From Pseudisothecium myosuroides (Eukaryota; Streptophyta; Bryopsida; Hypnales; Lembophyllaceae), in the NCBI GenBank assembly GCA_951799445.1, contig OX637291.1, forward strand, positions 622,501 to 686,500: a stretch of 64,000 nucleotides of DNA, given 5' to 3'. Every line of letters starts with the position of its first letter. Position 1 is the first letter of the stretch. The notes below the pieces were generated by a model. That model did no database searches. It was not told the DNA's origin and worked only from the letters and a program-made list of their open reading frames with translations. A program made the position numbers and the translations under genes. Shown here piece after piece: positions 23,751 through 58,759 of this stretch.

Positions 23751-23795
23751 CAAGGAAAACATTAGAAGAAGGAAAAATACTTAAAGAGGACATTG

Positions 23796-25185
23796 AAAGC
23801 CAAAAAATGTAGTTGAGCAAGGTGCAAAAAAACTTGATTCCTTCACTTTAAATGCAAATATCTTGCAATCTACACGGTCAAAGTTTCTGAAATTTCTTCC
23901 ACACATTCTTACACTAGTCTAGTACAAGATCCTATGGTTAAATATGCCAAAAACACATTAACCTTTTTTTTTGCTCTTCGCTATAGAAATGGCAGTTTTG
24001 AGTGATTTTTGATGGAAAATTGGCCTTGGGACTTTAGGGGTTAATAGTAATCACATAGTTTCCTTCACACCTATGAACTACCTAACCATGGCTTGTCCTT
24101 TACAAAGTGATCTTTACTACCTCTATTGCTTTCTCCTTTGCCCTTCTTCTCAAGATATCCTCGCGCCGAGAATGCTTGAGAGGTCCACTCCCATTGATGA
24201 ACTCTCCGCACGCCCCCAAAGACAGTGACTTCCTCTCCTTCACTTTTTGATTCCGCGTGCTTCGAGGAATCTCGAAGTTGGAAAGAGATTTAGAAGGTCA
24301 AGGAGGCATTTTTCTCTGCATCCTATTGTTTATGTAGACATGCACATTTCCTAATTGGTAAGTGTTGGTTGGCCGGCAACTATCACGTAGAATCCTATGT
24401 CGAAAAGAAGTGCCACCTGAGTTCATAGATCCGCTTCTAAGAGACTGCAAGGGGATAGACCCACTATTTTTGGGACGAGGAAAGTTGTCATTCGTGAATG
24501 AACCCAATTGGGCCATTCTATTCTCATCTGCCTATGTGGAACCCACTTTGTTGACATTTGCATACAGCTTCCTGTGTGGTGTGGCCTTAGTCCACGAAGT
24601 TGGTGAATATAAATGCTCATACCCTAGCAAAGATGTCGTTTGCTTCAACGAGGGGGGGTGAGCGTTTATTTACCCGCCCTTGATAAATAATCGAGTACAA
24701 TCAGGTTCTTAGTAAACTAGGTCCGATTTTATCTATGGGTGTCTAGTGTCAATCCATTGTGCCTTTCAAGCAATAAATCTTTTCTACATTCTTAACGTTT
24801 ATAATTGTTTTGTAAAGAAAACAAGAACTTAATTGGAATTACAATGACTTTCCTACCTAATTCAAGCTAAGAGGTTACGGTGGTTTTGGAAACAAGGTGG
24901 TTACAGTCTAAATTTAGCTACTCCAAGGATTAGGGCAATTCATGCCATTTTCAAAAAACATACAATACTACTCTATCTGACCTTTCTAGCAAAAAATATC
25001 GATGGATGAAGTTTAGCCTTTAAGAGGTCGTTTAAGCTTCATCCCTCTTTTTAGACTTGTTACCCATTTGATTTGATGTTGGATTTTTGTCTCTAGTTTT
25101 GGATTATTGGATTCCATTTAAGTTCCAAGTTGGGCAAAGTTGGATCAATTTAGCTTGACTTCATCCATTCCCTAGTCTAAACTTC
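23796..25185 (+). repeat. left arm of a 1.39-kb inverted repeat
   Basis: Its reverse complement is 41385-42774, also 1390 bp. A 99-codon frame inside is identical between the arms. Differences are few and gather at the inner end (about 24960-25185), mostly C/T and G/A. The arm holds the last 245 bp of a TTAA element, a tail fragment of the palindrome element and the TGAGCG-starting end of a TGTGGG-family element (24659 on). Its outer edge cuts through the TTAA element, so this arm is the derived copy. Confidence 0.9.
24298..24516 (-). pseudogene. tail-protein fragment of the palindrome element (left arm)
   Basis: Seventy-two codons reading ...NFPRPKNSGSIPLQSLRSG...FRHRILRDS...YQLGNVHVYINN. 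Matches the Ser/Arg-rich tail at 19088-19912. The frame is broken on both sides. Confidence 0.6.
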
Positions 25186-26070
25186 TTCCTTGATTTCCTT
25201 CTAGAATTTAAGTAACCTGGGCGGGAGGAACATCTCCATACAAGGCCTTTCCTATCAATTTAGTAAAATTCATTTACCAAAACAGATATCAACTTGGCAT
25301 AACATCTTAGTTAACTTTGTAAGAAGATTTTCTAATGTACCAATATAAATCACATCAGATCAAATACATGGTAAAGTTTTCAATAAAATTTCTTTGAGCT
25401 AGACTACAAATCTCATCTTGCCAAATAAATTAAATCCTGCCATCAAAAAGATTTAGAACCTCCCAAAACTTAAGAAAATCAAGGTCTTGGATGAGCTGCC
25501 AAGTTGAATAGTTTTAAAGAGGCTGTGAACCTCACCTACACCCATACAATCCAATGAACACGAAATTAGTTAGAATGCACATGCAATGCATCTTCAATTC
25601 ACAACATGTCATTGCAATCACAGTAGAAAAATAAACCAACATAGCTCAAAACATCTCACAAGAGAGAAACCATCAAATCATAATGTAACATCTTGTCAAT
25701 CACACAAAACTTGTGAAGAAGCCATCTCTAACCACACTCCAAGCTCCAAAATCACCTCCTGACTACTTGTACAAACTACCAACAAAAACACATATGCAGG
25801 TTGCAGAGAAGTAAGGCCCAAGTATTTAAATTAGAAAGTTCCCGCCATAGCCATGGCCATTACAAAAAAATTCGGGCTTCCAAAAGGCCTTTACAATTAG
25901 TTTTTTCATAGCCGTCAAGCTCCAAGATACGTTACTATTCCCATATTACCGTGCAAAGCCCATCACGGGCAGCTTGGAGATCAGCGGTTGAGATCTTGTT
26001 CTGTTTCTTACCTGCCCGATCCTCTCATCATTCCGGTAGATACTTCAACTGAAGCCCATGCAGATTTGAT
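25186..26070. other. spacer, no gene seen
   Basis: AT-rich unique-looking sequence with no protein-like frame and no clear repeat. Confidence 0.5.
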
Positions 26071-26162
26071 TCTCGCGCCTTTGCTGGCTCAAAGTTCGCG
26101 CCATATTCTATCCGCTACCAAAGTTCGCGCCATATTCTCTCCTGGCGGCTGGAATTTGGCGC
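26071..26162. promoter_or_regulatory. cluster of four E2F-type sites
   Basis: TCTCGCGCC (26071), GTTCGCGCC (26094), GTTCGCGCC (26123) and TTTGGCGC (26155) fall within 92 bp. E2F/DP factors bind TTTSGCGC-type sites in promoters of S-phase genes. The middle two lie in a direct repeat of CAAAGTTCGCGCCATATTCT type. The local rise in GC fits a promoter. Which gene it serves is not clear; the nearest candidate is the spliced frame at 26559-27458. Confidence 0.5.
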
Positions 26163-26558
26163 TTTATTCTGCCGCCTTTTGCAATTGTAGTATTTCACTG
26201 CAATAAATCCGTGCACTCAATGGCTTGCATTTGTCCGTGGTTTTGGCGTCTTTTACTGTAAAACGATTTGCCAGGAAGCTGTGTGAGTGAATTCTTTTGG
26301 TTCTACTTGGTCTTGCAGCCTCCCCGCTGTGGACAATGTTGATCACCTTGTATGCTCTATTGGAGTTGATGTTGATAGCGTAATTCTCGTTGTGAGCCTA
26401 GCAACCAGATTTATGTTTGCTCTTCTTTCGCTTCTGTAACGTCTGTTTATTAGTATTTGGCTTATAAATCTATGACAGAATTATTGTTGTGAAAATCTGG
26501 GGTGGTACTGTAATTTGGCAAGGTTGTAACTGAGATACTTGGGGTTTGTACTTGACAG

Positions 26559-27458
26559 AGAGCCGGTATGTTAGCACTTCACTCAATTAGCAGTAAGCTA
26601 CACCAGCCGCTGCTTTACCAAAACAAGCACTTCAGTTGGTTAATTGTCTCAGGAGTACACAAGTACGGTGGTGCCGTTCGAGATCGAGATGACGCCTCCG
26701 CGCACAAGACCGCACAATGTCAAGTAAGTGCATGTTCTTTAACTTGTTTAATTGTTTGTTGCAACTCCCTTGAATGCGATTTGTAAAGGCTGAAATATTG
26801 TGACTGTATACATGATCCCGTAATTGAATCCGAAGGGGAAAGAAACTAAGTAAATGAAGATGCATACGGTATGGTAGATCTACGGTGTGTAACACATATT
26901 GTGCTATGAATTCCGAAGCTTCCTTCGCCTAGTCCTTCAAAACTGTGCTATGGATATTGTGCTATGAATTTTGAAGCTTCTTTCGGGAATTATTCGTATG
27001 AGTTTGCAGGAAATCGTCAACCTAGCTTTGATCGAAGTAATTTTTAGGGATTGTTTTCTTTGCTTCTTGTGCTCCAGCTGGTTAATATAAAATCAAGTTA
27101 GAGATTACTCAGAGTCTCAGATGCATCTCTCGATCTTTCTGCTGCTACTTCTTAGTATTAATGGGATTGAAAATTGAAGATCCTTTGAGGCACGTGGTTG
27201 TACATGAAGTTACTGGGAAACGTAATGAACTCGATCTCCAAGCATCCTCGCTCATCTCATATATATAAATTGGTGTCTTTGAAAGAACTCAGGCTTTGTT
27301 GGCTGTGGACATTGTTGATTTTTTTGTAGTTTGACAAGGCCGTAACTGAGATACTTGAGGTTTGTACGTGACAGGAGGGATTTGTGCATAATATGGTGGA
27401 ATGTATTGTTGATTTACATCGTATCGATCTTCATCTCTCTGACCTCAAGATAGTCCAG
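26559..27458 (+). CDS. candidate spliced gene or lncRNA (two exons, phase 0)
   Basis: Exon 26559-26723 (165 bp, after TTGACAG, before GTAAGTG) and exon 27375-27458 (84 bp, after GTGACAG, before GTAAGAA) are both multiples of three and join in phase 0. The joined reading runs RAGMLALHSISSKLHQ... to HLSDLKIVQ. I recognise no domain. Sequence just before the two exons is itself duplicated (GTAACTGAGATACTTG at about 26527 and 27342), and GCTGTGGACA(A/T)TGTTGAT occurs near 26328 and 27303. The acceptors may therefore be copies of one another. Downstream continuation is unclear: the next possible acceptor leads quickly to a stop. It follows the E2F-site cluster. It could equally be a non-coding transcript. 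Confidence 0.3.
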
Positions 27459-27690
27459 GTAAGAATTGAACATATTGTCATTATATTGCGAGCTTGCGAA
27501 GCACTCTTGGTATTCATGGATGCAATATTTTTTCTCTGTACGTTACTCAGTATTAACCTTCACTTCCATCAGATTTGATCTAGGGTTCGAGGATATTGGC
27601 GAAATCCATTTCTATGGTTCTTGTAGCAGGGCCGAGGCTTCCTTTTTTTTTGCCTTCCTTCATGGTATGTACTCTTTCCCCTGTTTGTAA

Positions 27691-28488
27691 TGATGCTATA
27701 CAGGCCTTCATTGTTTCGGGAAGCTAAATCAATTGAGTGCATCCTGACAACTCTATTCTATATTGGTCGTTCAGAACTTCAGATGGATTCAATTTAATTT
27801 GACGACTGTGCCTCGAAGATTGTACGTGACTGCATGGTGGTCCGGTGATCCAGTGATCAAGATGATTGTTTGGAGAAGTGCATGGTGATCCACTGATCGA
27901 GACGATCGTTTGGAGAAGATCGGAGATGTTCGAGCATGTGATCTTCCCTCAACAAGTAACCAAAATCGAAGGCATAAATAAAAAAACACATTGTTGCTTT
28001 ATCGTGTATGACGTTACTGTTTTCCTCAAAAGTCCATTCTCATATGACACCATTCTCATATACGAAAGAAAGACACAAACGGGAGTCAACAGCAAATTAT
28101 AGAATGACTGAGAAGGATCCACTGCTTTCTTCAACCTGGCGCAACCTGGATCTCATCGCGCACCTCATGAGATTCATGTCAGTGAGATCCACTGGTAAAG
28201 TTGCCCATTGTCCATGTGCACGAAATAATTGACCCCTGCTGTTAAATAAAATAATGTGAATATATTGAATAGATCAAAAAGAATATTCATGATGTCCTCT
28301 TGTCCAAAAGACTAAAAATTAAAGCTCAACTGAAGTGGTAACCGTATTCAATTCCTTACCGCTGCAACGTTGTCAGCTCATATTCCTCAACCAATGAATT
28401 GCAGCCCTTGCAACTCGATGAACTGCAGCCTGTGCAACCGCCGACACTTCAGCTTCCTTGCTGAATCTTCACTCATGAAGCTTGTATT
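27691..28488. other. upstream region of the DDE gene, no gene seen
   Basis: Moderate GC, several short frames, none convincing. The word GGTGATCCA(C/G)TGATC is duplicated (about 27844 and 27887). No RSS-like or Transib-like terminal heptamer pair was recognised. Confidence 0.4.
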
Positions 28489-31400
28489 ATGAAGGTTGAT
28501 ATGGAAAGTACTGAACCTCCGGTCAGGGTTCAGGTGTCTCTACATCCTAAGTACAAGCCGCTGGTAGTTAGAGGACGCTTCATTCACGAACAAACACCTA
28601 GATCAGAATTTGCTGAAAAACGAAAGCGTGGTGACACAAATCTGGACTTATGGCTGGATTCTTCCATATACCCACTAGACCCTTCAACTGGAAAACGACC
28701 AAAGTTTAATGACGTGAGAACTCTTCTAGAGTATGTAGGCGACGGAGAGAATGGACTCTTGGGTTACACACGTAACTTGCAAAATCCTGAAACGGTGACA
28801 AGAGCCATAGTTGATCGATGCAGAATTGAATTTGAAATTGAAAGTCTAAGGAAACTTTTGGATGAGAAACAACAAGAATTCGACTCATTACAACAGCAAG
28901 TGGGGGAGCATCAAAATAGTATTGAACGTAGCCATGCAACAGAATGCTCAGCTCTTCGCAATGAAATTCAAACTTTGCAGTTTGAATTTTCCGCACTTCA
29001 GAGTACATCAACCACTTTAGTAGCGTCTCTTAGTGCGGACCTTGAAGAAAGTATGCAATCAGAAGCAAACCTAGAGTCTGATATAGATGCAATTCAAAAG
29101 CAACACGCTGAGAAAAATGCGATGCTTGTTCAAAGTCATGCAGCAGAGGTACAGAAGCTCACAGTAGATTTAAAGCATGAAAGAAAGTGTGTCGCAATGT
29201 TAGAAAAAAAGTGCAGTCGATTGCAGTCAACACCAGTCCCAAGGCCTCGCAAAGACTTGTCAGATTTGTCTCAGTCTAGTGGTCATGCCAAAAAGCAGAG
29301 GCGACTAGTTCGATCTATTCTTGCAGGAGCTACGATGAAAAGAATTCAAGAAGGTAATCTTGCAAATCGTACAAAACAAAGATTGTGTGGCTCCGAAGAC
29401 AGTCAAATTCAATCAGGAAAAGTGCTTGCAAGAATTCTTTCAAAAAAAGAAGTTAGTGTCATGTTAAAGGCTCCGTGCATGCACTCAGTGACAACAAGCA
29501 TCGCAAACGATTGTTTGGAGAGGATTGGATCCACATTAAGTCCAGCTGAAATTGTTGAAACGATGGACAGAAGCGGGATCACGGATCATGGTTACACAAC
29601 AATTTATAAGCAGTTCCAAAATGGTGTCAAGTCTGCTGGTTCTGGGTTGCGAATCGGGTGCTTACCAAAGCCTTACCATGTTACATTACTTCGGAAAGAC
29701 ATGAATGCGAAGCTTCAAGACTTTGTAGGGGATTATTACTCTATACACAACAATTTGGAAATCATGCCGGGTCCACGGTCAAAGAAAAAGGACCCAATTC
29801 GATTGAAATTGAGTGAAAAGAATTCCTTTTTTGTTGACGTCGAAGTTGTACAAAGGACGATGGTCCAGTTGTACGACTTCACCCCAACAGGTATGCATGA
29901 CTTTCTGTGAATTCATTGATTTTTTAAAATATTTTGATTCTCCTGCCTATCTCATTGTTCTATAATTGGAGGAAGGTAATAAGATTTACTGAACTTGGTC
30001 ACCACTAACAAACCTCCCTCATTGATAATGTGATTTTTTGATACTTTCCATACTTGACCTCATTACCTCTACTCTTTTCAAGGGCATGTAGTGCCTGCAA
30101 CACCGATTGGATTCTCAAAACATCTGATACTATTCATAGCGGTTGATTTTTTTTCTATCTTTTAAAAACTAATTTAGTTAGCCATTCATTTTGAAGATAA
30201 TAAATTTCCATTAATTGAATTGTCCAAGTTGCGCTTCCGTGGAAGATCCTTCAAAACCGATTTGATTCTCAAAATTCTCAGATACTATTCACTTGGTGCA
30301 GGATTCTCAGATGAATAGTATTTTACACTTATAGTAATTTACCAGTGTCACTCCCATACATGTAATCAGGACGCTCATTCACACAGAAATTTATTCAGAA
30401 TAAGAGGTGAGTGACCGACACCCATTGATGTGGACATAGCAACCACTACTTGTGGTAACGGTTGAAAATAACCCGATTAAAGCCTGTAACTCTCATCAAG
30501 TCGGCATTGTGATGTATTGAATGAACCTCAACAACTCACTTATTTGTAGTTGAAGGAATTGCAGAGCGGTACAAATCAAAATCAGGGGAAACATTTGATC
30601 TTGTTCAGAATCACCCTCAGGTTCATTCGCCACCTACTCCTTACGCTCCTTGAGCTCTGGAGACCGTCTCCTGCAAAGTCCACAAACCAGAGACTAGTTG
30701 TCAGAATAGCTAGCTCATACAGAAGTTTTGAGGAAGGAATCACGGACCTTGTCAAGTTCGCAACGCTACAGGGTTTCTAAACAATCGAGGGAAGCCAAAA
30801 TTGCTGACGCAATATTCGTCTCTGATACTATTCATCTGAGAATCCTGCATGTGATACTATTCATAGAATTCGTTGTTTTACATGTCTCTTAAAAACTTAG
30901 TTTCAATGATTGTTAGTTTTGATGGTTGTTCCACTTGTGTGTTATTCTTGCAGAATTAGCAGGAAAGCCTCTCATATTCGTCTTGAAATTAGACGAAGCT
31001 GAAATAGTGCATGGGCAAAAGCTAGAAAGACTAAGCATAACTATAATGAACCGTGCATTAGATTCTGAAATGACTGAGGATAATCCACAATACTTTGCTG
31101 TACAAAGTGAACGAGAGATATGGCCGATTGGATGTTTTCAAGTCGAAAAAGAATCTCATGAGGTACTGTCTTGGGTTCTTAGCCAAACAAAGATTCCTGC
31201 CTTGATTTCCGCACAAAGAGCTGGACAACTGTTAATAGTCCCTGGAGTTGGCGAATTCTCTGTGGAATGGCATCTTTCAGCTGACATGAAAACACTGAAA
31301 TGTATGTTTGGTTTGGGGCATGGAGCATGTGCCAAATATCGATGCATATATTGTTCACAAGAGCGTGTTAAGACCGTTATTGGAACCCCAGGTGAAGCTC

Positions 31401-32676
31401 TAGCTTCATTTAGTAGACGGGGAGGAAACACTTGGAAGGGTGGTTTGTTTTCATCAGCAATACAGTCAAAACCTGTAAGTACTGGAGCAGAGTCTTCACG
31501 TTGGAAGCCTATCCTAGATATTCCCCTTGAAAGAGTTCACATGTGTACTTTGCACGCATTCAACCGGATCATTGAGAAAATTGTCCACTTACATTTCCAG
31601 TTCATTTGGACAATTCGAGACAAGGATCTAAAGAATCAAGCAACTGAAGAGATGCAAAAAGTTGTATCATCAACAGGTGCACATGGAGGCAATGTTCTTA
31701 TATTTAGAAATGAACAACTATCTGGAAAAAACAACAATGTGCCAAGTAAGCCATCATTCAATGGAGTGCACGCCGCAAAGTTCTTCCGACAATCAATTTT
31801 GTCACAAGGTTCAGATAAATTGTATAAAGATGTTGTGTCGGCTGAGCGGAACTTCATTGATGGTGGGTTGTCTAAGAAGGAAAAATTGGCAGTATGGCAA
31901 GGCCTCGATGACTTACGGATATACTTCACAAGTCTAAAGTTAAATGATGAGTTGAGACAAAATTTCAAGAGTATAGTCGAAAAATGGGGACGAGAGTACA
32001 TCTCAGCTTTTGGTGAAACACATGTGACACACTACATAGTAAGTGCATCCACTATTGCTTATGTATGTACTTTTAATGAGAAAATAAGAAACAAATAGTA
32101 AATTAAATTGTTATATAAATTAAATTAAATTAAATGCAAATTTGATTGACATTGACACTAATTAAACTTTTTTAATTGAAAACATGGCAGCATCTCTTAG
32201 TCAAGCATGCGCCATGGTTTATTGCACAATATGGTAGTCTTTCCGTCTGGTCTTGCCAAGGTATGGAATACAGCCACTATGCTGCTAAAGCTGCCTATCA
32301 AAGGCATACCCAACATGGAGGGGGGAGATCAAAAAAGTCACCTATAGTGCAAACATACCAACACTGGTATCGAATTATTCAACACCGATTTAGAGAGAAA
32401 AACAAGATGGCAACCGAAACAATTCTTCAAGATGATGGTGGCCTTACAATAGAAGCACGCATACAAAAGAGGCGAGAGGCATGCATTACTTCATCTGCAA
32501 ACGAACATAGTCGTCTATGGCGGCAAAAGTGTGATCGTGTGGGTTCAAGATGGGTGCCACAAACAAGTCCATCGGTGAATGATTCTAGCGAATCCAATAT
32601 TCCAGGCCAGAACTACTATGCCTACTCATCTAATACTTCAATTAGTTCAATCGTCTGTCCGCTTGCATTGATGTGA
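28489..32676 (+). CDS. RAG1/Transib-like DDE recombinase-transposase protein (three exons, 990 aa)
   Basis: Exons 28489-29890, 30954-32038 and 32191-32676 join through GT-AG introns with the frame kept (2487 + 486 nt). Residues about 105-250 form a coiled coil, followed by a basic KKQRRLVRS stretch. The second half has, in order: D481 in KLDEAEIVHG; D578 in LSADMKTLKCMF; C598-x2-C601 (RCIYC); a VHMCTLHAF...KI block; a FNGVHAAKFF block; H830-x4-H835; and E855 in SCQGMEYSH, 20 residues after H835. This is the D...D...C2C...H4H...E layout of the RAG1/Transib catalytic core; C2C...H4H is also known in CMC-group transposases. No stop or frameshift is visible. The ATG used is the first in frame; an upstream exon cannot be excluded. 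It may be an intact transposase or a domesticated gene. It is unlike the decayed elements around it. Confidence 0.7.
30298..30851. mobile_element. 554-bp inverted-repeat element in intron 1
   Basis: TGCAGGATTCTCAGATGAAT (30298) returns reversed at 30826-30851 (26 bp in all). Further GATACTATTCA copies lie outside at about 30129, 30282 and 30852, and the sequence after 30126 resembles that after 30852. Intron 1 thus grew by duplication and/or a MITE-like insertion. Confidence 0.5.
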
Positions 32677-32730
32677 ATTCAAACAAAGTCCTCATTAACA
32701 AGCACCTGCTTACACAGAGACCAAAATTAA

Positions 32731-33150
32731 TTGATGCACAAATTTTTCCAAGTGCAAGTTTCATTCAGTTGAATTAACGACTTATGTTGCGGGTGCAGAT
32801 CAATGAGTTTGCGAAGCTGGGAAGTGACCAGCTTGTGCCATATTACAGCTTGTGGGCAACCTAATTTCACTATAGTTTGTGTGGTTCATCTGAATCCTAC
32901 TCAGGAGTCTGCAGATGTTGTTGGGTTTTTTCATGTTCCTGTAAGTTTTGGCGGTGACTGTTACTTTGGGCACTAGTCATCATCCAAGTTTGATTGACAT
33001 TGATGCACAAATAAAAAGCAAATTTGATTGACATTGATGCACAAATTTTTCCAAGTGCAAGTTTCATGCAGTTGAATTAACAACTTATGTTGCGGGTGCA
33101 GATCAGTGAATTTGTGAAGCTGGGAGGTGACCACCTTGTGCCATAGTACT
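32731..33150 (+). repeat. about 120-bp direct repeat 3' of the DDE gene
   Basis: TTGATGCACAAATTTTTCCA...GTTGCGGGTGCAGATCA...CTTGTGCCAT occurs at about 32731-32845 and again at 33019-33145 with small changes. Between them lies a lone end of the TA-flanked MITE family (GGGCAACCTAATTTCACTAT, about 32855-32885). Confidence 0.75.
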
Positions 33151-33544
33151 CTGATATCCTTGGAGTTGTGCTTCTCTCTATATCTGATTAGGAAGAAAAG
33201 ATACGAGTGGTACGTTTATAGCAATCTATGCTTGCAGAGCTATCCTGTCTTAGCACCTTATGGCTGAACTTACTTATGATAGAGAGATTTTCCATAGACT
33301 CGTTAAGAAGCTTTTTTGTAACAGTCTTTTTTTACTCTATTATCTCTTATTCTCTTATTATCTATTGCCTTACAATTTGCTGTAGAGTTTTTATTCACAT
33401 GGTATAGAGAACGACGTGGTAATTGAGAGTTAACTTCTAGATCACATACCGAGATTACTAACATCCTTCCGCACACTTCTGGTAGTATATTGGGAAATCA
33501 TCTCCTTCTGAAGCCTTACTGTAGCACCACCTGTTAAAGTAATT
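33151..33544. other. no feature seen
   Basis: AT-rich sequence; no protein-like frame or repeat. Confidence 0.4.
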
Positions 33545-33650
33545 GCAAGTTCAATTAGCAAGTTCAATTAGCAAGCTGTAAAGTTCAATTAGCAAGTTCA
33601 TTACCAAGTTCAATTAGCAAGTAAAGTTCAATTAGCAAGTTCAATTCAAG
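33545..33650 (+). repeat. tandem repeat of AAGTTCAATTAGC units
   Basis: Six or more 13-bp units with short spacers (GTAAAG, TTACC). Confidence 0.8.
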
Positions 33651-34090
33651 TAATTACACGTCCTACAGACTTTGAAAAGAATTAAAGATGTACCTCTAGA
33701 TGAACGTTCATCTGGAGAGAATTAGCAGCTGTAAAGCAATCAGAAGTACTGCTACACCTCATGATAGCAAATTAAAGCTCTCCTATCCACATATCAATGC
33801 TCAACACTCAACAGGTCAATTGGAAAACATTTTATATATATCAGAGAAATTATTTCAATAAATCCTCTTGGGCACACATCTGCAAGAGTTTAACCTACAT
33901 ATGTGCGCAAGATCCTCCATACAATTGGCTAACTCGATGCAGCTCATTGAGCTACTAGACCTCAAAAGCTACAACCTTGTTCAAATCCGCGCAGTAGTTG
34001 GTGAGAGCTCCCTCTTCAAATAATAAGAATAATAGTATGTCACTTCAAGCTGAGCTACAAGTGGATCATCACGTTCAAATTGACAAAATG

Positions 34091-34483
34091 TCACTGCTCT
34101 AATCCGGTAACAGCGCCAGCGTCCATAAGGCTAGAAACCGTAACAGTGCCAGAGTCCAGAAGGCCAACAGCATCAGGAAAGAGTAAGGCCCGTGGACGTA
34201 CACAAAATGGTAGTAAGGCGGCACGATGAAGTTGATGGTGTAGATAATGTAACAACAGATTATGACGGTCATGATTAGGGCCACCACGGCCAGCAGCAGG
34301 TGGAAGAGGATGGACCCCACTTTCTTCACCAAATGCATGACTAATTGAATCCCAGGCATCCTTCATGCGTGAATCCCAGGCATCCTCCACCGGCTCCTTC
34401 ATGAACTCATCTTGAGAAGTCCTGAGAAATCCTGAGAAATCTATAGCCCGTCTCTTACTGATTACCCAGTAGCTGCACTGCAT
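34091..34483 (-). pseudogene. unrecognised membrane-protein-like fragment
   Basis: Two overlapping minus-strand frames make sense only in series. The first gives DEFMKEPVEDAWDSRMKDAWDS; the second, shifted, gives a hydrophobic stretch (SILFHLLLAVVALIMTVIIC, then YIIYTINFIVPPYYHFVY and FLMLLAFW) with two to three likely membrane spans. GATGCCTGGGATTCA occurs twice in tandem. If this is one gene, it is frameshifted. I do not recognise the family. It lies between two convergent genes, in the minus direction. Confidence 0.25.
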
Positions 34484-35257
34484 GGAATGCTCCGAAATAT
34501 ATCAAATCCAGCTCCAACACTATCCATCAGAAGTGCAAGTGCAGGGATTGATACACAATTAAAACCCAACATAATGCCCTGTAACGCAAGATGAACGCAA
34601 CATAATGATAGGTGAGCAAAATATTGTTAGAATGCAAATCTCTGTGGACAATACACCCAACCCGGCAATCCTCATGCAAGTATATCAGCAAACAAGGTAC
34701 TCCAATGGCTATTTCGTAACTTCAGCCCCATTCCAAAACAGACTTGTCCCGCTCTACCCTATAACCAATGAAACATTAGCTATATGATCACCAAGAACTT
34801 CATTACAAAGAATACCAAAGATTTACCAGGCAATGAATAGCTCCCTTTTCAGACCCCAAGTAGCTCCCCTCATCAGAAAATGGTGATACTGGTGCCAAGA
34901 TGCTTAACAGATAAACTTTCACATTCTCCACCGTGTAACAGTAAGTAGAATTGTTCAAGTCAATAGTGGATTCACAACACAAGAGGTACCTCTTGTTGGG
35001 GAGGACATTCAGTCAAGCACACTTCTCCTCAAATTGGTAGTGCCAAATTTAGATAAACTAACGAGTTTGAGTATGGAGCAGAGACTACTTAAAGGGGTAC
35101 CAAGAATTCTTCACTTGAGCTTACAATCTTTTGCATATCGATTCACAACATGAATATCCGCAGCTATAGGAGTCATTTCTCTAAGCTTTATTCAGTGGCA
35201 AAGTTGCATTTGGGAAGGCAGTGTGACTACATTGTTGCACACAGTAATATGGTGCGC
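34484..35257. other. spacer downstream of the minus-strand gene
   Basis: No protein-like frame that I would defend. Confidence 0.4.
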
Positions 35258-36713
35258 CTACTCATCTGGTACAACATTCAATATTGTTGGAGGTATAATA
35301 TCTGCTGCAATCCAATTTTTTTCATGCCTGCGATTCACCTGCAACATTCAATAATAGTATTAGACCTAGAATCCAAGTTAAAATCACAAGAAGATAAAAA
35401 TAATGAAACAAAATTTTTGGAAAATTCTTACCTTTTTAGATTGCTGATCCTCATACACAATATAGAATGTGAAGTCTGAGGGTAGGTTTGATCCAAGAGC
35501 CATTTCAACTTCAGACCTCAGGGATGTAAGGGTCCAGTTGTGGCCAACCTCGAGCTCTTGTTGCCAATCACCCATCTTGCATAAAACTTTCACAATGTTA
35601 ACAGATCCGGTTTGATCAATTGGTTGCCATACTCCACCTTCCTTCAACCGTAGCCTATTGAATTGAAAATTAGAGTACAATGTGCTACGGCCTATGTGAT
35701 ATTTAAATATCACTGAAGCTAAATCCACGCAACATTTGATTGCATCTGCTCCGATGCATACCTTCTCATCCCAACCTTTGTCCATAAGAGAATCAAAGAC
35801 AATCCTTGTCAAGTCTTTGAACACAAACAAGGTGCGGGTTCTGTGAATGCTTGTTGCAACTGCAAACAAGTCTACCATGACATTGATAGGCATAAACCAA
35901 CTAATATGTGTAGCCTTGCTCCCTGTGCTTGGTTTCATGGAGGATAAAAAATCCTCTCTCATTTGTAATCTAAATGCTTCTGTCGTTGCCATGTCAGGTA
36001 ATGGCCAAGAAGGGTCTTCAAAGGATGGCAAAGGGATTGTTTCCAGTCGACCATATCCCCCAGAAGTACTAGGATGGTACCAAGCATTATAGAAATATAC
36101 TGAGTCTTCAAGTAGTTGCTTGTGATTACGAGAACCTTTATTTGACTCTCCAACTTCAGCATGATAGACACAAAGGACTCGAAGAACACTTGATGGCTTA
36201 ACCCAATCTTCATATTTTGACGGATACAAATCTGTAGAGAAATAAAAGAATACTCAGATTCACACAATGTTATGACTATTAGTTCATGACAAGAAACAAC
36301 TAGAAGATTGTTAGTTCATTGTTAATTACATGGCTGGAAAAAAAATACTTACAATTGCAGGCTCCATCCAAGATGGAATCTTCAAGATTGAGCTTCAGTT
36401 GTTGTCGAGTATAGGCATGTTGTACTAGAATTGCTTGAACTCTTGATGAATCAGGGCAAACTTTGAACTTTAGAACCTTTGCTTTATAATCGCCGTGCTT
36501 TTTGGCCTCACGAGCATGACCGCCTCTCTTCTCAGGTTCTAAAGCTATCCAAGAATTTACTTCTATCTTGGTGGGTATATATTCACCATCTTTGTCTTGA
36601 AGATGGTTCAAAACTACGCTTTGAACAAAGCTCCTTGGTCTCATCTTTCTTGAAACTGTACACTTGGTTTGTACCTGTGAAGCTGCACATGCACCACAAA
36701 CTCCATAAACCCA
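35258..36713 (-). CDS. unrecognised spliced gene converging on the DDE gene (3' three exons)
   Basis: Exons (minus) 36713-36353, 36231-35432 and 35338-35258 join through GT-AG introns. The frame is kept (1242 nt including the TAG stop), giving 413 residues; the 5' end is incomplete because exon 1 here starts at an acceptor (CTCCTTGTTTTAG). It opens WVYGVCGACAASQVQTKC, a Cys pair that could bind metal. Its C-terminus (WTLTSLRSEVEMALGS...PSDFTFYIVYEDQQSKKVNR, then AADIIPPTI) resembles ubiquitin-like or doublecortin-like folds in pattern only. The middle has no motif I know, and no Kelch repeats are seen. No internal stops. Tail-to-tail with the gene at 28489, with about 2.6 kb between them. Confidence 0.5.
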
Positions 36714-39085
36714 CTAAAACAAGGAGCAAAACAGGTGATGTTAGCTGTGAAGAAGCTGAATTCCAGTAAATGAGCATCCTCCAGCAGCCACTAGAAGAAA
36801 GAGCAGGTCAATTACCTTTTGTTTGTATTCTCAATCAGCGAGATGGACCACTCGAGCATTGAATTCCTAGAATCGGAAATTCATACAGGCTCTCTTAATA
36901 GCATCCACCTGGGAAGCGATCCACATTGCTCCCAATTACATGTTATGCATACAAAGTAGAACCAGTTCAAATAACAACACACGCCCTTATGACAACTAGA
37001 GATAGGTCACAGTTATATTTGGCAGTAAATCCATGCAATCAGTGGCTAGCAGTCACAATAATCTTTGAAACCACCTTTACAACAAGTACTCTCGTCACCT
37101 CGAGGAGATAAGATCACTCACCCTTGTAAGGACAGAAACCCTAATTTTTCTCCTGTTCCGATAGAAACCCTAATTCATCTTCCTTCTCAGTTTGTGCCCG
37201 TTCCAATGATTTGGTGATCTGGCATTCAAATCACCGTGAAAAATGTCACATGATGTGCCAGTTCCAAGCCTATGTGCCCCTCCAAACGACCTTTTATATG
37301 ATACTAGGTATTGACAAGGTTACAAGTTCTCTAGGTTCACAAAGGAATCGTTGTTCAAGAACCATATTCCAATATCCCTTTCTAACACCTACCAACAACG
37401 GAATTGGAAGCAAAGCAGAGCAGACGAAAACAAGAAATTTACTAGTGAAACCAATGGATTACCAACTCAGCAAACAGACTTACTGTAATACCCGCTTCTC
37501 CATAAGCTGAACATAGAGTATTGAATCGAAAGAAACAAAGAAGTTGTTGTTCAACTCTAAATTCCACTCTTACGTCATCCACAGAAGTATACAAACATGG
37601 ACGAACATGTGGGCAAGCACGTAGCCTAAGGCACAACCCACCAAGAACAAAACCAACCACAAAGTCATCGCCACCTCCTCGACTGCGCAGGTGAATCAGA
37701 ATGATCAATAGTTACTCAAACGAATTTGAGTTACAGACTCTTTAAAACTACACTTAAAAGTGATGCTCTTTACATATTATAAATCCGTGTAGGCAAATTA
37801 GATTCAGACAGGATGCCAGGACAAAAAATTAGGGTATCTGTCATTCAACACGATGCAAAGAATTGTCAACAAAAATTGGACATACAACAAAGTTAAAATT
37901 AAATACCTCAATGGCAATCTCTTCGTTTTCAACCTGTTCCTCGTCAACTTGGCGCTCCAACGACGCCACTTTCAAAACTCCGATCAGAAACTACATCCAG
38001 CTGAGCCTAATTTTGGCGCACGGAGTCTCATATCTCATACTTTTCAGAATTGGGATACTACGAAATTATCTCAGTCAAGGTGCTTCCACGAGATAAATTG
38101 CATTTGCAATACACAAACCCTAGTTTTTACAACTTCTTGTCTTCTTCCTAAGTTACGACATAAAGCTATAATACTTCCATTTTTATTAGCACAAACAAAA
38201 GAACAGATTCATTGCAACATGAAAGCACGACTAGCTCGAGCCAGGGAGGACCTGCATAGAATGAAGTGAGCTTCGAGTGCGCCAAATGCAGCTTATCGGG
38301 CTTCCCGCGGCCTTCCCGAGTTCCCGCCAAGCACCACACGCATCGAAGCAACATGCAGTCTACACGTGGTCGAAGCGGGAGTTCTTTCTTTCAGCTCGGG
38401 CAAGGCTGGGCAACTGCCTAAAAATATCTGAACCCCCTCTTGCGGAGAGGGCCCTACTAAGACCTCAAAATTCTTCTAATGCAAATTCAAATTCAAATAA
38501 GAGCGGACTATGCAATGGCACTCAAAGTGGCTCGTCAAGTCCAACACCTTAGGCCAAGACTGGTCAAATTAGTTGGGCCTACCCCCACCTATATTTTTAC
38601 TTAGGTCCATACATACAAACTATAAATTGTCATCCAAATAGTATGGCAAAACTTCTAAAGTAGTCACTTCATATGGCAAAACATATGTGTGAGTGACAAA
38701 GATTTCATAGATAAGGATTTGGCCAAATCACTAGTCCAAAATACTATCTATAGGTTTGAGTCCAAATTAATTACATGATGACTAATTTAGACTCAAAGTT
38801 CACCAGAATATGGTTCCATCATAGAAACCATAGACAAAGTAAATTGGTAAAATACAAATACAAATTGAATTACCTTAACCTTGGATTTAATCCACAAAAA
38901 AGGTCATATAGGTAAAACTTGACTCAAATGAACCAAGAGGAATATAATTCTATGAGGTCACTTTAAAAGAATGTATTTGTCTAGAAGGAAGGGAGGGGCT
39001 CAAAATAAAAAGAAATGTACTAAAAAGGTAACATTTAAAATCTAATATTATTACCGATAAAGTCCAGAAAAATCATAGCCCTTAA
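36714..39085. other. upstream region of the minus-strand gene; no further exon fixed
   Basis: Two telo-box-like AAACCCTAA words lie here (see 37136-37176). Around 38270-38470 GC rises. The open frames (37442-37708 minus, 37853-38269 plus) have no recognisable domain. First exons of the gene ending at 35258 may be here. Confidence 0.35.
37136..37176. promoter_or_regulatory. pair of telo-box motifs
   Basis: GAAACCCTAATTTTT and GAAACCCTAATTCATC, about 33 bp apart. The AAACCCTAA telo-box is common in plant promoters and 5' leaders of growth-linked genes. It could belong to the first exon or promoter of the minus-strand gene. Confidence 0.35.
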
Positions 39086-41384: not shown

Positions 41385-42774
41385 GAAGTTTAGACTAGGG
41401 AATGAATGAAGTCAACCTAAATTGACCCAACTCTGCCCAAACTTGGAACTTAAATAGAATCCAATAATCTAAAACTAGAGACAAAAATCCAACATCAAAT
41501 CAAGTGGGTAACAAGTCTAAAAAGAGGGATGAAGCTTAAACGACCTCTTAAAGGCTAAACTCATCCATCGATATTTTTTGCTAGAAAGGTCGGATAGAGT
41601 AGTACTGTATGTTTTTTGAAAATGGCATGAGTTGCCCTAATCCTTGGAGTAGCTAAATTTAGACTGTAACCACCTTGTTTCCAAAACCACCGTAACCTCT
41701 TAGCTTGAATTAGGTAGGAAAGTCATTGTAATTCCAATTAAGTTCTTGTTTTCTTTACAAAACAATTATAAACGTTAAGAATGTAGAAAAGATTTATTGC
41801 TTGAAAGGCACAATGGATTGACACTAGACACCCATAGATAAAATCGGACCTAGTTTACTAAGAACCTGATTGTACTCGATTATTTATCAAGGGCGGGTAA
41901 ATAAACGCTCACCCCCCCTCGTTGAAGCAAACGACATCTTTGCTAGGGTATGAGCATTTATATTCACCAACTTCGTGGACTAAGGCCACACCACACAGGA
42001 AGCTGTATGCAAATGTCAACAAAGTGGGTTCCACATAGGCAGATGAGAATAGAATGGCCCAATTGGGTTCATTCACGAATGACAACTTTCCTCGTCCCAA
42101 AAATAGTGGGTCTATCCCCTTGCAGTCTCTTAGAAGCGGATCTATGAACTCAGGTGGCACTTCTTTTCGACATAGGATTCTACGTGATAGTTGCCGGCCA
42201 ACCAACACTTACCAATTAGGAAATGTGCATGTCTACATAAACAATAGGATGCAGAGAAAAATGCCTCCTTGACCTTCTAAATCTCTTTCCAACTTCGAGA
42301 TTCCTCGAAGCACGCGGAATCAAAAAGTGAAGGAGAGGAAGTCACTGTCTTTGGGGGCGTGCGGAGAGTTCATCAATGGGAGTGGACCTCTCAAGCATTC
42401 TCGACGCGAGGATATCTTGAGAAGAAGGGCAAAGGAGAAAGCAATAGAGGTAGTAAAGATCACTTTGTAAAGGACAAGCCATGGTTAGGTAGTTCATAGG
42501 TGTGAAGGAAACTATGTGATTACTATTAACCCCTAAAGTCCCAAGGCCAATTTTCCATCAAAAATCACTCAAAACTGCCATTTCTATAGCGAAGAGCAAA
42601 AAAAAAGGTTAATGTGTTTTTGGCATATTTAACCATAGGATCTTGTACTAGACTAGTGTAAGAATGTGTGGAAGAAATTTCAGAAACTTTGACCGTGTAG
42701 ATTGCAAGATATTTGCATTTAAAGTGAAGGAATCAAGTTTTTTTGCACCTTGCTCAACTACATTTTTTGGCTTT
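41385..42774 (-). repeat. right arm of the 1.39-kb inverted repeat
   Basis: Reverse complement of 23796-25185. Unlike the left arm, it continues without a break into the rest of the TTAA element (to 43451) and the 3' flank of the palindrome element (43456-43880), so this is the parent copy. Confidence 0.9.
41913..42480 (+). pseudogene. tail-protein fragment of the palindrome element (right arm)
   Basis: Plus-strand blocks PRPKNSGSIPLQSLRSGSMN, FRHRILRDS and YQLGNVHVYINN, then after a stop (near 42270) SLSLGACGEFINGSGPL and SRREDILR, match 19088-19912. The 5' part was replaced by a TGTGGG-family end (41913 and below). Broken by a stop. Confidence 0.6.
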
Positions 42775-43451
42775 GAACCTTATTAACATAAAAATTTTGC
42801 TCTAATGATTTTGAATTTCTAATTTTATATGATGAAGAATTGAGTTGAAAATCTAGGAATTTTTTTTTAAAAAGAAACATTTAGTTTTCACTCATTAAAA
42901 AATTGTTAAATAGAAGTAGGTTCAAGATTGAAGGAAAAATTTATTCATTAATAGCTCTAAGATAGGCTTGAAATGTACTAATTTCTACGGTGATATTGTT
43001 CTAGCAAGAAATCTTAACCTTGTAAAACCTTTTTTTTTGAAAAATTGTCAAAATTAAGATCAAAAATGAATCCTACGAGTTATTTTTTCAAAAAGATGCT
43101 CTAATTGCCTGAAAAATAAGATTGTCCATAACTTTTGCATAACAAATTCAAATGGAATGAATCAAAGCTTCCCATGTAGATACAAATAGAATCTATATGA
43201 ACTTATTTTTTGAAATTTGAAATTTAAAGTTTTTGTGAGGATTTTTTTCTGTCCATTGAACTAAAATTTGGGGGTTTTGTGCCATAACTTTTGTTCCCGG
43301 GCACCGACTGAAATAAAAATTACATTTTTGGAAAGCTAATGTGATTTTCTATCTTCACAAAAAAATTCAAAAAATTATGACAAATATTGAGACCATACAA
43401 GCCTGCCCGAAATCCATTTTGTCCCTCAAGGGGACAATGGGACTTTAGGGG
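42530..43451. mobile_element. 922-bp TTAA-flanked element (type B) inside the palindrome element
   Basis: TTAA at 42526-42529; the other side is TTAC (43452-43455), one change from TTAA. Ends CCCCTAAAGTCCC...GGGACTTTAGGGG are a perfect 13-bp inverted repeat. The empty site is seen at about 19965 in copy A, where tail and 3' flank are joined. Confidence 0.85.
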
Positions 43452-49496: not shown

Positions 49497-49797
49497 CTTG
49501 CTAGAGATGATGCTCACACATTGAAGGTGGGTATAATTTGTAATATGTAATATGTTTTGTTAGGTGTAGAGTGAAGTATTGTGCTTTTCAGCGGTATAAA
49601 GACTGCATACATGCATCCAAGTATTTTTAAATTGATGGAGCAAGATTTTTTCACAGTACAAAGTATGAAGGGTTTTCTTATGAAGTGTGTATGGCTGGGT
49701 CAGGTTACCCAAGGGTAAGTTTAGGAGGAGGAACACTTTGCCCGCTAGTGCGAAAGCGTCAAAGCAAGCAGTTCAAGTTAGTGGTGGGAGTACGCGC

Positions 49798-52206
49798 ATG
49801 CAAAGCGCAACGACCGCTAGTGAAGCAATTGATCTTTTGAAGAACCGACTACAACAGGGCATTGCAATAGACTCGTACTCCTATGTTGAAATTCTGAAGC
49901 GGTGCTTGAAGCAGGAAGACCTTCCGGCAGTAAAGCAGGTTCATGAGTGCACCATTGAGAGTGGCATGCAGCAGAATATATATGTGGCAACCAACCTATT
50001 GAGTGGATACATCAGATGTGGGAGACTGGAGGATGCATGCAGAGTGTTTGACGAACTTGCGAAGAAGGATGTTGTTACTTGGACCGTCATGATTGGAGGT
50101 TATGCTCAGCACAGTTGTGTGAAAGACGCCATGGAAGTTTTTCATCGCATGCGAAAGGAAGGTATGCAACCTAATGCAGTTACTTACTTGAGCATCCTGA
50201 AAGCCTGTGAGAGCCCATCAGCCTTGAAGTGGGTCGAGGAAGTTCATGGATATATCAGAGAGGGTGGGTTGGAATCAGATGTTCGTGTGGGGACTTCGCT
50301 CCTTAAAATATATGCAAAGTGTGGGATCATAGAGGAGGCAAGGAACACTTTTAATAAGTTGGCGAGTCGCGATGTGATTACCTGGAATGTGATGATTGGA
50401 GCATATGCCGACAGTGGTGATGGTGAGGAAGCATATCGACTTCTTCTCCAAATGAAACGGGAAGGCTTCAAACCAAACGCAATCAGTTATATGAGTATCC
50501 TGAATGAATGTGCAAGCGTAGGGGCTTTGGAGTGGGTCAGGGAGGTTCATAGCCATGCCCGTGAAGCCGGATTTGAGTCAGATGTGCGTGTGGGCACCGC
50601 GCTGGTGCACATGTATGCGAAGTGTGGCAGTATCGATGATGCGCGACTGGCTTTTGACAAGATGGAGGAACGGGACGTGGTTACTTGGAACGTGATGATT
50701 GGAGGACTTGCGCAACATGGCTGTGGGTTTGAAGCATATCGACTTCTTCTCCAAATGAAACGGGAAGGCTTCAAACCAAACGCAATCACTTATATGAGTA
50801 TCCTGAATGAATGTGCAAGCGTAGGGGCTTTGGAGTGGGTCAGGGAGGTTCATAGCCATGTCCGTGAAGCCGGATTTGAGTCAGATGTGCGTGTGGGCAC
50901 CGCGCTGGTGCACATGTATGCGAAGTGTGGCAGTATCGATGATGCGCGACTGGCTTTTGACAAGATGGAGGAACGGAATGTGATTACTTGGAACGTGATG
51001 ATTGGAGGACTTGCGCAACATGGCTGTGGGTCTGAAGCATATCGACTTCTTCTCCAAATGAAACGGGAAGGCTTCAAACCAAACGCAATCACTTATATGA
51101 GTATCCTGAATGCATGTTCAAGCGCAGGGGCTTTGGAGTGGGTCAGGGAGGTTCATAGCCATGTCCGTGAAGCCGGATTTGAGTCAGATGTGCGTGTGGG
51201 CAATGCGCTGGTTCACATGTATGCGAAGTGTGGCAGTATCGATGATGCGCGACTGGCTTTTGACAAGATGGAGGATCGTAATGTAAGCACATGGACCGCG
51301 ATGATTGGTGGACTTGCAGAGCATGGATGTGGGCATGAAGCCCTGGAAGTCTTTAAAACTATGATTGCAGACGGTGTGAAGCCCAATGAGATCACATTCG
51401 TTGCAGTGTTGTCAGCTTGTAGTCATTCAGGCCTTGTGGATGAGAGCCGCAGACATTTTTTGGCTATGACACAAGATTATGGCATCGAACCTAGTGTGGT
51501 GCTTTGTAACTGCCTGGTGGATGTTCTTGCGCGAGCAGGACACTTGGAGGAAGCAAAGCTCTTGATTGACAACATGCCGGTGGAACCAAATGCTGCAACT
51601 TGGGGAGCCTTGGTCGGTGCTTGTAGAACGTACGGCAATGTGGCGTTGGGCAAACTTGCCGCTTATGAGTGGCTCAAGTTGGAACCGAAGGATGCTTCTG
51701 CATACGTGCTTCTCTCGAATATCTATGCTGCAGCTGGCAAGTGGGAGGAGGTGTTGTGGGTGCGCACTATGATGCAGGAGAGAGGTATACGCAAGGAGTC
51801 AGGGCGTAGCTGGATTGAAGTTGATAACAAGGTCCATGACTTCGTCGTAGGGGATACTTCTCACTCAGAAGCGAAGGAGATCTATGTTGAGTTGAGGAGA
51901 TTGAGTGAGACAATTAAGGCCGAAGGCTACATTCCTGATACCCGGCTAGTGTTGCGGAACATTGAGGAGGAGGAGAAAGAACTTGCTCTTTGTTCCCATA
52001 GCGAGAAGTTGGCTATTGTTTACGGACTCTTGCGGACACCCCCTGGACATCCAATTCGGGTGTTCAAGAACCTTCGAGTGTGTTTAGACTGCCATACAGC
52101 AACCAAGTTTATCTCAAAGGTGACTGAACGAGATATTGTTGTGAGGGATGCCAATCGCTTTCACCACTTCCAAGATGGCGTGTGTTCTTGTGGTGATTAC
52201 TGGTGA
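49798..52206 (+). CDS. PLS-class PPR protein with E and DYW domains (organellar RNA editing factor)
   Basis: An intronless 802-codon frame from the first in-frame ATG (49798). The frame is open 37 codons further upstream without an ATG, so an upstream start or 5' exon is possible; no clear transit peptide is seen from this ATG. A run of P, L and S motifs fills the first two thirds (DVVTWTVMIGGYAQ, ALVHMYAKCGSIDDARLAFD), then E motifs (PNAATWGALVGACRTYGNV, YVLLSNIYAAAGKWEEVLWV) and a DYW domain. The DYW domain holds HSEKLA (deaminase-like HxE, E about residue 736), CLDC (zinc pair) and the terminal CSCGDYW. Such proteins bind organellar transcripts and convert C to U. All catalytic residues are present and no stop or shift occurs, so it looks functional. 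Three P-L-S triplets are nearly identical. Confidence 0.93.
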   Translation: MQSATTASEAIDLLKNRLQQGIAIDSYSYVEILKRCLKQEDLPAVKQVHECTIESGMQQNIYVATNLLSGYIRCGRLEDACRVFDELAKKDVVTWTVMIGGYAQHSCVKDAMEVFHRMRKEGMQPNAVTYLSILKACESPSALKWVEEVHGYIREGGLESDVRVGTSLLKIYAKCGIIEEARNTFNKLASRDVITWNVMIGAYADSGDGEEAYRLLLQMKREGFKPNAISYMSILNECASVGALEWVREVHSHAREAGFESDVRVGTALVHMYAKCGSIDDARLAFDKMEERDVVTWNVMIGGLAQHGCGFEAYRLLLQMKREGFKPNAITYMSILNECASVGALEWVREVHSHVREAGFESDVRVGTALVHMYAKCGSIDDARLAFDKMEERNVITWNVMIGGLAQHGCGSEAYRLLLQMKREGFKPNAITYMSILNACSSAGALEWVREVHSHVREAGFESDVRVGNALVHMYAKCGSIDDARLAFDKMEDRNVSTWTAMIGGLAEHGCGHEALEVFKTMIADGVKPNEITFVAVLSACSHSGLVDESRRHFLAMTQDYGIEPSVVLCNCLVDVLARAGHLEEAKLLIDNMPVEPNAATWGALVGACRTYGNVALGKLAAYEWLKLEPKDASAYVLLSNIYAAAGKWEEVLWVRTMMQERGIRKESGRSWIEVDNKVHDFVVGDTSHSEAKEIYVELRRLSETIKAEGYIPDTRLVLRNIEEEEKELALCSHSEKLAIVYGLLRTPPGHPIRVFKNLRVCLDCHTATKFISKVTERDIVVRDANRFHHFQDGVCSCGDYW
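50428..51285 (+). repeat. 303-bp in-frame tandem duplication in the PPR gene
   Basis: GAAGCATATCGACTTCTTCT recurs at 50428, 50731 and 51034, exactly 303 bp (101 codons) apart. Units 1 and 2 differ at five residues. Unit 3 differs more and diverges after about 51285, where the E region begins. Confidence 0.95.
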
Positions 52207-58054: not shown

Positions 58055-58759
58055 CTAAGCGGACTCTCTCATTGCCTCGATGATACAATTGAAATTGTAA
58101 TCACCAGCAACAAGCAGCCTCAAGCCAATCCAATTGGCCTCGACAAATTCCCATAGCTGCCCCGGTTGGCAGTCTGAGATTAGCCGCCGGAGCCACTGTA
58201 AGAGGTCTTCTATGAGGAACTTGTCCCTCCGCTTCTCATAGTTCCAGGTGTTCACAACAATGGCATTCCCCTTCTCATTATAGACGCTCTTCTCCAAAGA
58301 GTCATCTATGATAAGGGTGTTGTCCGCACTGAAGGACGTGCCCCCACTAGGATTGAAGAACAGTGTCTCAGACAAAACCTTCATGAGGAACACTTTTGGG
58401 CCGAAATGAAGATATTTCCCCAAAGTGTACTGAATCTTCTTGCACTCATTTTGATTTAAGACATTGTAGGGAGGTCTGCACCGGTTGAATATGTGTGCGG
58501 CTATTGGTTCCGCATTGGACTTGAACATTGCAGTCCACATTAGGATCCTGCCTACGATCTCGGAAACTTCTTGAAGGAATTTGGCAACATTCTCCCGAGC
58601 AAATACTGCCTTGGGTCCAATAATTGTGGGAATTCTGTGGCAAACAACATTGTCTTTGACCCTAGAGGGCTTGAATTTCTTTTTTCTGTAATCGCTTGTC
58701 CAAACTTAACAGAGCACTCCGTTCAAGTCAAAGACAATGTTCAACCACTTCCTCCGCGG
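58055..58759 (-). pseudogene. HAD (FCP1/NIF-type) protein, copy C, one stop
   Basis: A single minus-strand frame from PRRKWLNIVFDLNGVLC (58759) to the stop at 58055, with one nonsense codon (TAA at 58708-58706) that replaces the Gln codon (CAA) of copy A. It includes TIIGPKAVFARENVAKFLQE, MWTAMFKSNAEPIAAHIF, VFLMKVLSETLFFNPSGGTS and NTLIIDDSLEKSV. Motif I is again DxN rather than DxD, as in copy A. Motif IV DD is kept. This copy is not split by the 8.35-kb insertion and shows the intact order of the protein. Confidence 0.7.

Follow-up and report, generated by a model that had tools for sequence, protein, structure and literature searches.

A moss gene with a predicted RAG1-type fold is very probably the transposase of a two-gene DNA transposon

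In vertebrates, the enzyme RAG1 carries out the rearrangement of antibody genes, and a gene of the moss Pseudisothecium myosuroides whose product carries a RAG1-like set of residues raises the question of whether it serves its host or belongs to a mobile element, and of which kind. The gene lies in a 64,000-nucleotide stretch of contig OX637291.1 (assembly GCA_951799445.1, positions 622,501 to 686,500, forward strand), hereafter the window. It encodes a DDE protein with a predicted RAG1/Transib-like fold, very probably the transposase of a two-gene DNA transposon bounded by terminal inverted repeats (TIRs), which is present in dozens of copies, has a convergent partner gene in most of them and inserted with a 0-bp target duplication at two sites for which an empty counterpart was found.

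Joining positions 28489-29890, 30954-32038 and 32191-32676 of the plus strand, across two GT..AG introns, yields a protein of 990 residues with no internal stop. The initial annotation had proposed this stop-free three-exon product, and D481, D578, C598, C601, H830, H835 and E855 all fall at the numbers it gave:

28489..29890, plus strand: transposase exon 1, with an N-terminal conserved DLW motif (from alignments), a coiled coil and the region ahead of the catalytic core; homologous in other copies
30954..32038, plus strand: transposase exon 2, with D481 (30992-30994), D578 (31283-31285) and C598/C601 (31343-31345, 31352-31354)
32191..32676, plus strand: transposase exon 3, with H830 (32191-32193), H835 (32206-32208), E855 (32266-32268) and the stop; junction crossed by P0045

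The exons end at the same residues in other genome copies, and P0045, a database protein of 898 aa, is continuous over the second predicted junction. Counting from D600, the counterparts in mouse RAG1 are D708, C727, C730, H937, H942 and E962, in the same order as in the window protein, which confirms the numbers given in the initial annotation; the mouse core sequence used here differs from PDB 6v0v by one mismatch. Within intron 1, positions 30297-30849 look like an insertion whose 25-bp inverted ends match perfectly, and they probably represent a small non-autonomous element.

The likeness to RAG1 extends to the predicted structure. Using the model of a homologue 33% identical to the window protein, both Foldseek and VIA-align ranked RAG1, BbRAGL and HzTransib at the top, well ahead of the next match, in line with the earlier proposal of a RAG1/Transib-like DDE protein in a plant. 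The same model shows a long helix N-terminal to the core, which agrees with the coiled coil suggested there. A RAG1-type fold is a prediction that is confident in the RNase H core and not in the region of the Glu. A profile of the family scored 38.0 against mouse RAG1, compared with 21.3 for reversed RAG1 and 23.2 for the best of 60 shuffled RAG1s. In hhalign the profile and RAG1 aligned over 345 columns at 20% identity with the motifs in register, beating 60 of 60 shuffles, and all eight matches of the profile in PDB were RAG1 (best E 0.037).

The transposase core is encoded at no fewer than 45 places in the genome (388 Mb, 222 contigs), reduced to one per copy from 81 matching rows of the genome search; the true number may be higher, as the search scores no more than its best candidates. 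Conservation was counted in 30 fetched loci out of these 45 places (L008 was dropped as the same copy as L033, and L031 and L032 are near-identical). In the copies reaching each site, D481 is kept in 27/28, D578 in 28/29, C598 in 29/29 and C601 in 27/29, and H830, H835 and E855 in 28/28 each. In a protein collection, 14 relatives with 30-56% identity were found, and 25 by profile search, 21 of the latter being new. One of these, a partial match, comes from the fern Adiantum nelumboides (P0061, 404 aa, E 6e-32, 39% of the query covered). Viral contigs scanned with P0002 gave two pattern matches, neither of them a relative.

The extent of the element is evident from copies on contigs 1 and 3, which are 99.48% identical over 18.7 kb and whose identity ends on both sides exactly at 21-bp TIRs matching at 20 of 21 positions. 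With up to one mismatch, a 16-base family end occurs at 73 sites in the genome, versus 29 for the reversed control, and a 1,070-bp derivative carrying both ends is among the 73. Elements of a second subfamily (17.6 and 22.5 kb) end in CATTAGAGAATTTTTGGGGTCACTGAGAGG and a near-inverse of it. The family ends read CATTAC...GTAATG and CATTAG...CTAATG, that is, they have the CA..TG termini of most members of the CMCT clade, which is considered below. For the window, a weight matrix built from five family ends, all located elsewhere, was scored at every position of both strands, with 15 random sequences as the null:

25858..38481: probable full element, 12.6 kb, with left TIR, transposase gene, convergent gene 2 and right TIR; right end firm, left end probable
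25858..25888, plus strand: left TIR, CATTACAAAAAAATTCGGGCTTCCAAAAGGC; probable, matrix score 20.5, next site 14.0
38451..38481, minus strand: right TIR, CATTAGAAGAATTTTGAGGTCTTAGTAGGGC; 18/21 to the family TIR, matrix score 32.7 versus a null maximum of 21.4

Similarity to a copy on contig 8 (94-96% identical) likewise breaks off precisely at position 38481. The site at 25858 is the second best of the window, and one of the 15 random sequences scored higher (21.4); the left end is given as probable only, since its score falls within the random-sequence range. At the left end of a copy on contig 4 no clear TIR-like site was found.

Outside the TIRs on both sides, positions 23793-25009 and 41561-42777 form an inverted repeat of 1,217 bases with 100% complementarity, which extends to 25188 and 41382 and is a composite of several repeats. 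Among the 40 genome matches listed, the whole repeat occurs only in the window, twice. Does it reflect a recent inverted duplication or gene conversion?

Both genes of the window copy are open and its left end is degenerate, as would be expected of a host gene pair domesticated from a transposon, a possibility that the initial annotation had raised for the transposase gene. Ratios of nonsynonymous to synonymous substitution (dN/dS) below 1 point the same way, values of 0.30 and 0.40 against a broken copy on contig 4 indicating constraint on coding. An active transposon would be under the same selection, however, other copies are open too, and the 99.5% identical pair is younger. Domestication finds no support, because the family occupies at least 45 places, has TIRs and includes two 99.5% identical copies on different contigs, and we regard it as very improbable.

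Target sites were examined through empty counterparts. The contig 3 copy is inserted six bases inside a repeat, and at least 38 other places of that repeat continue past the insertion point, query and match being of equal length in the comparison; four of these empty places, compared base by base, read CAGTAG/AACCTC with no base gained or lost, giving a 0-bp duplication. For the second subfamily, one empty place is 96% identical over 300 bases and gapless across the junction, again giving 0 bp. As the empty counterparts align without change, insertion at these two sites was precise and made no target duplication. The flanks of other ends, inspected by eye, also lack a duplication. Two more elements, the second copy of subfamily 2 and the 1,070-bp derivative, were searched for empty counterparts (a set that left out the contig 1 copy and a 423-bp element), and the matches were confined to the elements' own flanks or to repeats on one side. 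The empty sites also exclude a 2-bp AT duplication inside CATG. A check for copies with shared ends and 5-bp duplications had been proposed earlier; the shared ends are present, and in place of 5 bp both empty-site pairs give 0 bp. A repeat starting TA-CAGTAGAACCTCTCTAAGTCG, about 92-96% identical among its occurrences, is found on contig 3 around 24830890 and 24849630 and at 38 or more further places; its ends are reminiscent of miniature inverted-repeat transposable elements of the pogo type.

Downstream of the transposase gene and convergent to it, the minus strand encodes a second gene (gene 2, 36644-35258) of 390 aa:

36353..36644, minus strand: gene 2 exon a, start MRPRSF; exon present in 5/5 other copies compared
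35432..36231, minus strand: gene 2 exon b, from the genome search and comparison with other copies
35258..35338, minus strand: gene 2 exon c, with the last part of the predicted ubiquitin-like domain and the stop

A convergent gene 2 follows within 25 kb at 37 of the 45 transposase places, counted with 102 of 143 gene-2 search rows (the 41 weakest omitted) from a search that scores only the best candidates. Protein P0022 is continuous over the predicted a/b junction and, like P0045 in the transposase, would be consistent with spliced transcripts. Among 22 relatives of gene 2, the sole named moss protein is M758_UG238500 of Ceratodon purpureus. The C-terminal domain of the gene 2 product is predicted from the model to be ubiquitin-like. 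Neither Foldseek nor VIA returned a kelch or RAG2 chain among the best 50 matches of each, the first half of the model being of low confidence, and no Foldseek match reached E 0.001. Gene 2 likely encodes an accessory subunit, in a role like that of RAG2 beside RAG1, and apparently a different protein from RAG2.

Two observations concern the arrangement of these genes. Sixty-five of the 102 gene-2 places fall outside the 25 kb downstream of every transposase place, and gene 2 may persist or spread without the transposase. On contig 4, two transposase copies (1848572-1849666 and 1860556-1861650) lie inverted to each other and score almost equally, with a gene 2 on each outer side at the same distance of 5,613 bases, a large palindrome-like duplication.

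To which group does such an element belong? In PMC12730594 the CMCT clade comprises EnSpm, Mirage, Chapaev, Transib/RAG1, Plavaka, ESTA and Lanisha, with C(2)C and H(3-4)H motifs, mostly 5'-CA..TG-3' termini and duplications of 2-5 bp. C598-x2-C601 and H830-x4-H835 are present in the copies reaching them and, compared with this description, the motifs and the CA..TG ends fit a position within or beside the clade. The other option considered initially, a sister of RAG1 within the wider C2C...H4H transposases, fits best.

CACTA/EnSpm, the common CMC transposon of plants, shares this C2C/H(3-4)H logic and the CA..TG ends (PMC12730594), and its Transposase_21 (PF02992) is abundant in the same genome, at 150 places or more. 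Nevertheless, when compared with the family profile, six CACTA proteins of this genome scored only 13.7-24.1 one by one and 19.7 when aligned together, versus 38.0 for RAG1; these values are close to those of shuffled RAG1 (maximum 23.2), one CACTA (24.1) lying slightly above. PF02992 does not appear among the matches listed up to E 10 for the window protein and its relatives. That the element is a CACTA transposon is quite unlikely. ESTA has the same motifs and termini and is tied to RAG1 by HHpred in the source cited, where ESTA is described as making TA duplications and fungal EnSpm families 3-bp ones, in contrast to 0 bp here. Transposition without duplication is attributed to Spy in the title of a paper cited there, Spy however belonging to the PHIS group.

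The three best solved structures, RAG1, BbRAGL and HzTransib, would also suit a plant Transib in the strict sense or a typical RAGL transposon like ProtoRAG. With HzTransib the element shares the predicted transposase fold and the order D, D, C2C, H4H, E; with ProtoRAG, as described in PMC9435367, it shares TIRs, a predicted RAG1-fold transposase and a convergent second gene. Layouts of RAGL elements vary, RAG1L and RAG2L being head-to-head in echinoderms (PMC4411706) and in the same direction in Aureococcus (PMC9435367). PMC4411706 also places Chapaev in the Transib superfamily. RAG1/Transib proteins are no longer known chiefly from animals, as the earlier view had it: PMC9435367 reports 39 Transib-like proteins of plants and a RAG-like transposon of a pelagophyte alga. 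In PMC8355894, plants appear only in the references as far as a term-limited look at that paper extends, and a RAG1-like transposon of a moss or fern was not found by title among the literature matches listed. Against a Transib or RAGL assignment, the duplications described for such elements are of 5 bp (PMC9435367), and the 0-bp insertions weaken it, as do the CATTAC/CATTAG ends; unlike Transib, the element has two genes and spans about 12.6-22.5 kb. The matches listed for the partner's model, much of which is poorly covered, do not include RAG2, and the partner, with its predicted ubiquitin-like C-terminus, is not detectably RAG2. Identity to mouse RAG1 is 20%, versus a mean of 26% that PMC9435367 gives across RAG1L cores and Transibs taken together. 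We consider this assignment unlikely.

A superfamily named Lanisha was reportedly proposed by Maumus, McDaniel and Carey in Repbase Reports in 2020, and its authors are said to work on the moss Ceratodon. On balance, membership of Lanisha is somewhat favoured for the element, in which case the transposon is known and only the RAG1-type fold, the partner and the target behaviour are perhaps new. The likeness is by description: in PMC12730594, Lanisha is grouped with EnSpm, Transib and RAG1 by common C(2)C and H(3-4)H motifs and similarity to EnSpm, in a clade whose ends are mostly CA..TG. The Ceratodon origin of gene 2's named moss relative agrees with it, whereas the 2-5 bp duplications described for the clade do not match the 0 bp found here.

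Several results count against a RAG1-type transposase in a two-gene element. The homologue's model has a mean predicted local distance difference test score (pLDDT) of 63 and a predicted template modelling score (pTM) of 0.50, most of the H4H...E region being below 50. Sequence similarity of the family to RAG1 is weak: Pfam RAG1 matched 4/7 members below its cut-off (best E 0.046) and the window core at E 0.11 (11.1 bits, cut-off 25), and Pfam on the whole protein gave no RAG1, mostly coiled-coil-like families under their cut-offs. A first profile (A1), from which the last exon was mostly absent, matched CHMP3 in PDB (E 4e-4) over the coiled coil, not RAG1. PF12940, searched in six frames over the genome, gave 0 matches, an uninformative result because none appeared in 14 controls either. 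In most dN/dS comparisons dS is saturated, and it is near 2-3 in two of the usable ones. At eight of the 45 places no convergent gene 2 occurs within 25 kb, and in one of the 37 pairings gene 2 is common to that place and a neighbouring copy. Finally, 0 bp differs from both the 2-5 bp of the CMCT clade and the 5 bp of Transib. Weighed with these points, the window still holds a real two-gene element, which is probably mobile and likely moves by cut-and-paste.

In such a cycle, the transposase would bind the CATTA... ends, D481, D578 and E855 would hold two metal ions, and a zinc held by C598/C601 and H830/H835 would position the Glu-bearing segment. The element may then be excised, perhaps via hairpins by analogy with RAG1/Transib, and joined to the target at directly opposed positions, which would leave neither gap nor duplication, with the gene 2 product presumably acting as an accessory subunit.

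Two further features of the window lie beyond the element:

49684..52206, plus strand: open frame of 840 residues, presumably resembling a pentatricopeptide repeat protein with a DYW end, judged from motifs
58055..58705, minus strand: open frame matching NIF phosphatase (PF03031, E 2.1e-9)

The surprising features of the element are its partner gene and its 0-bp insertion. Tentatively, and with considerable doubt, land plants may carry a separate two-component RAG1-type recombinase, in which a RAG1-fold transposase works with a convergent partner of its own that has no kinship to RAG2, and joins DNA without target duplication; if so, a facing partner gene would have been recruited by RAG1-type enzymes at least twice. 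Should the family be Lanisha, that name would gain a predicted fold, a partner gene and a target behaviour. The predicted structure, beyond motifs, connects transposons of plants with the V(D)J recombinase of vertebrates, and another convergent partner, with a predicted ubiquitin-like end, beside a RAG1-fold enzyme offers a natural comparison for RAG1's need of RAG2. Such an enzyme inserting with 0 bp would put to the test how the distance between the two strand-transfer sites is set.
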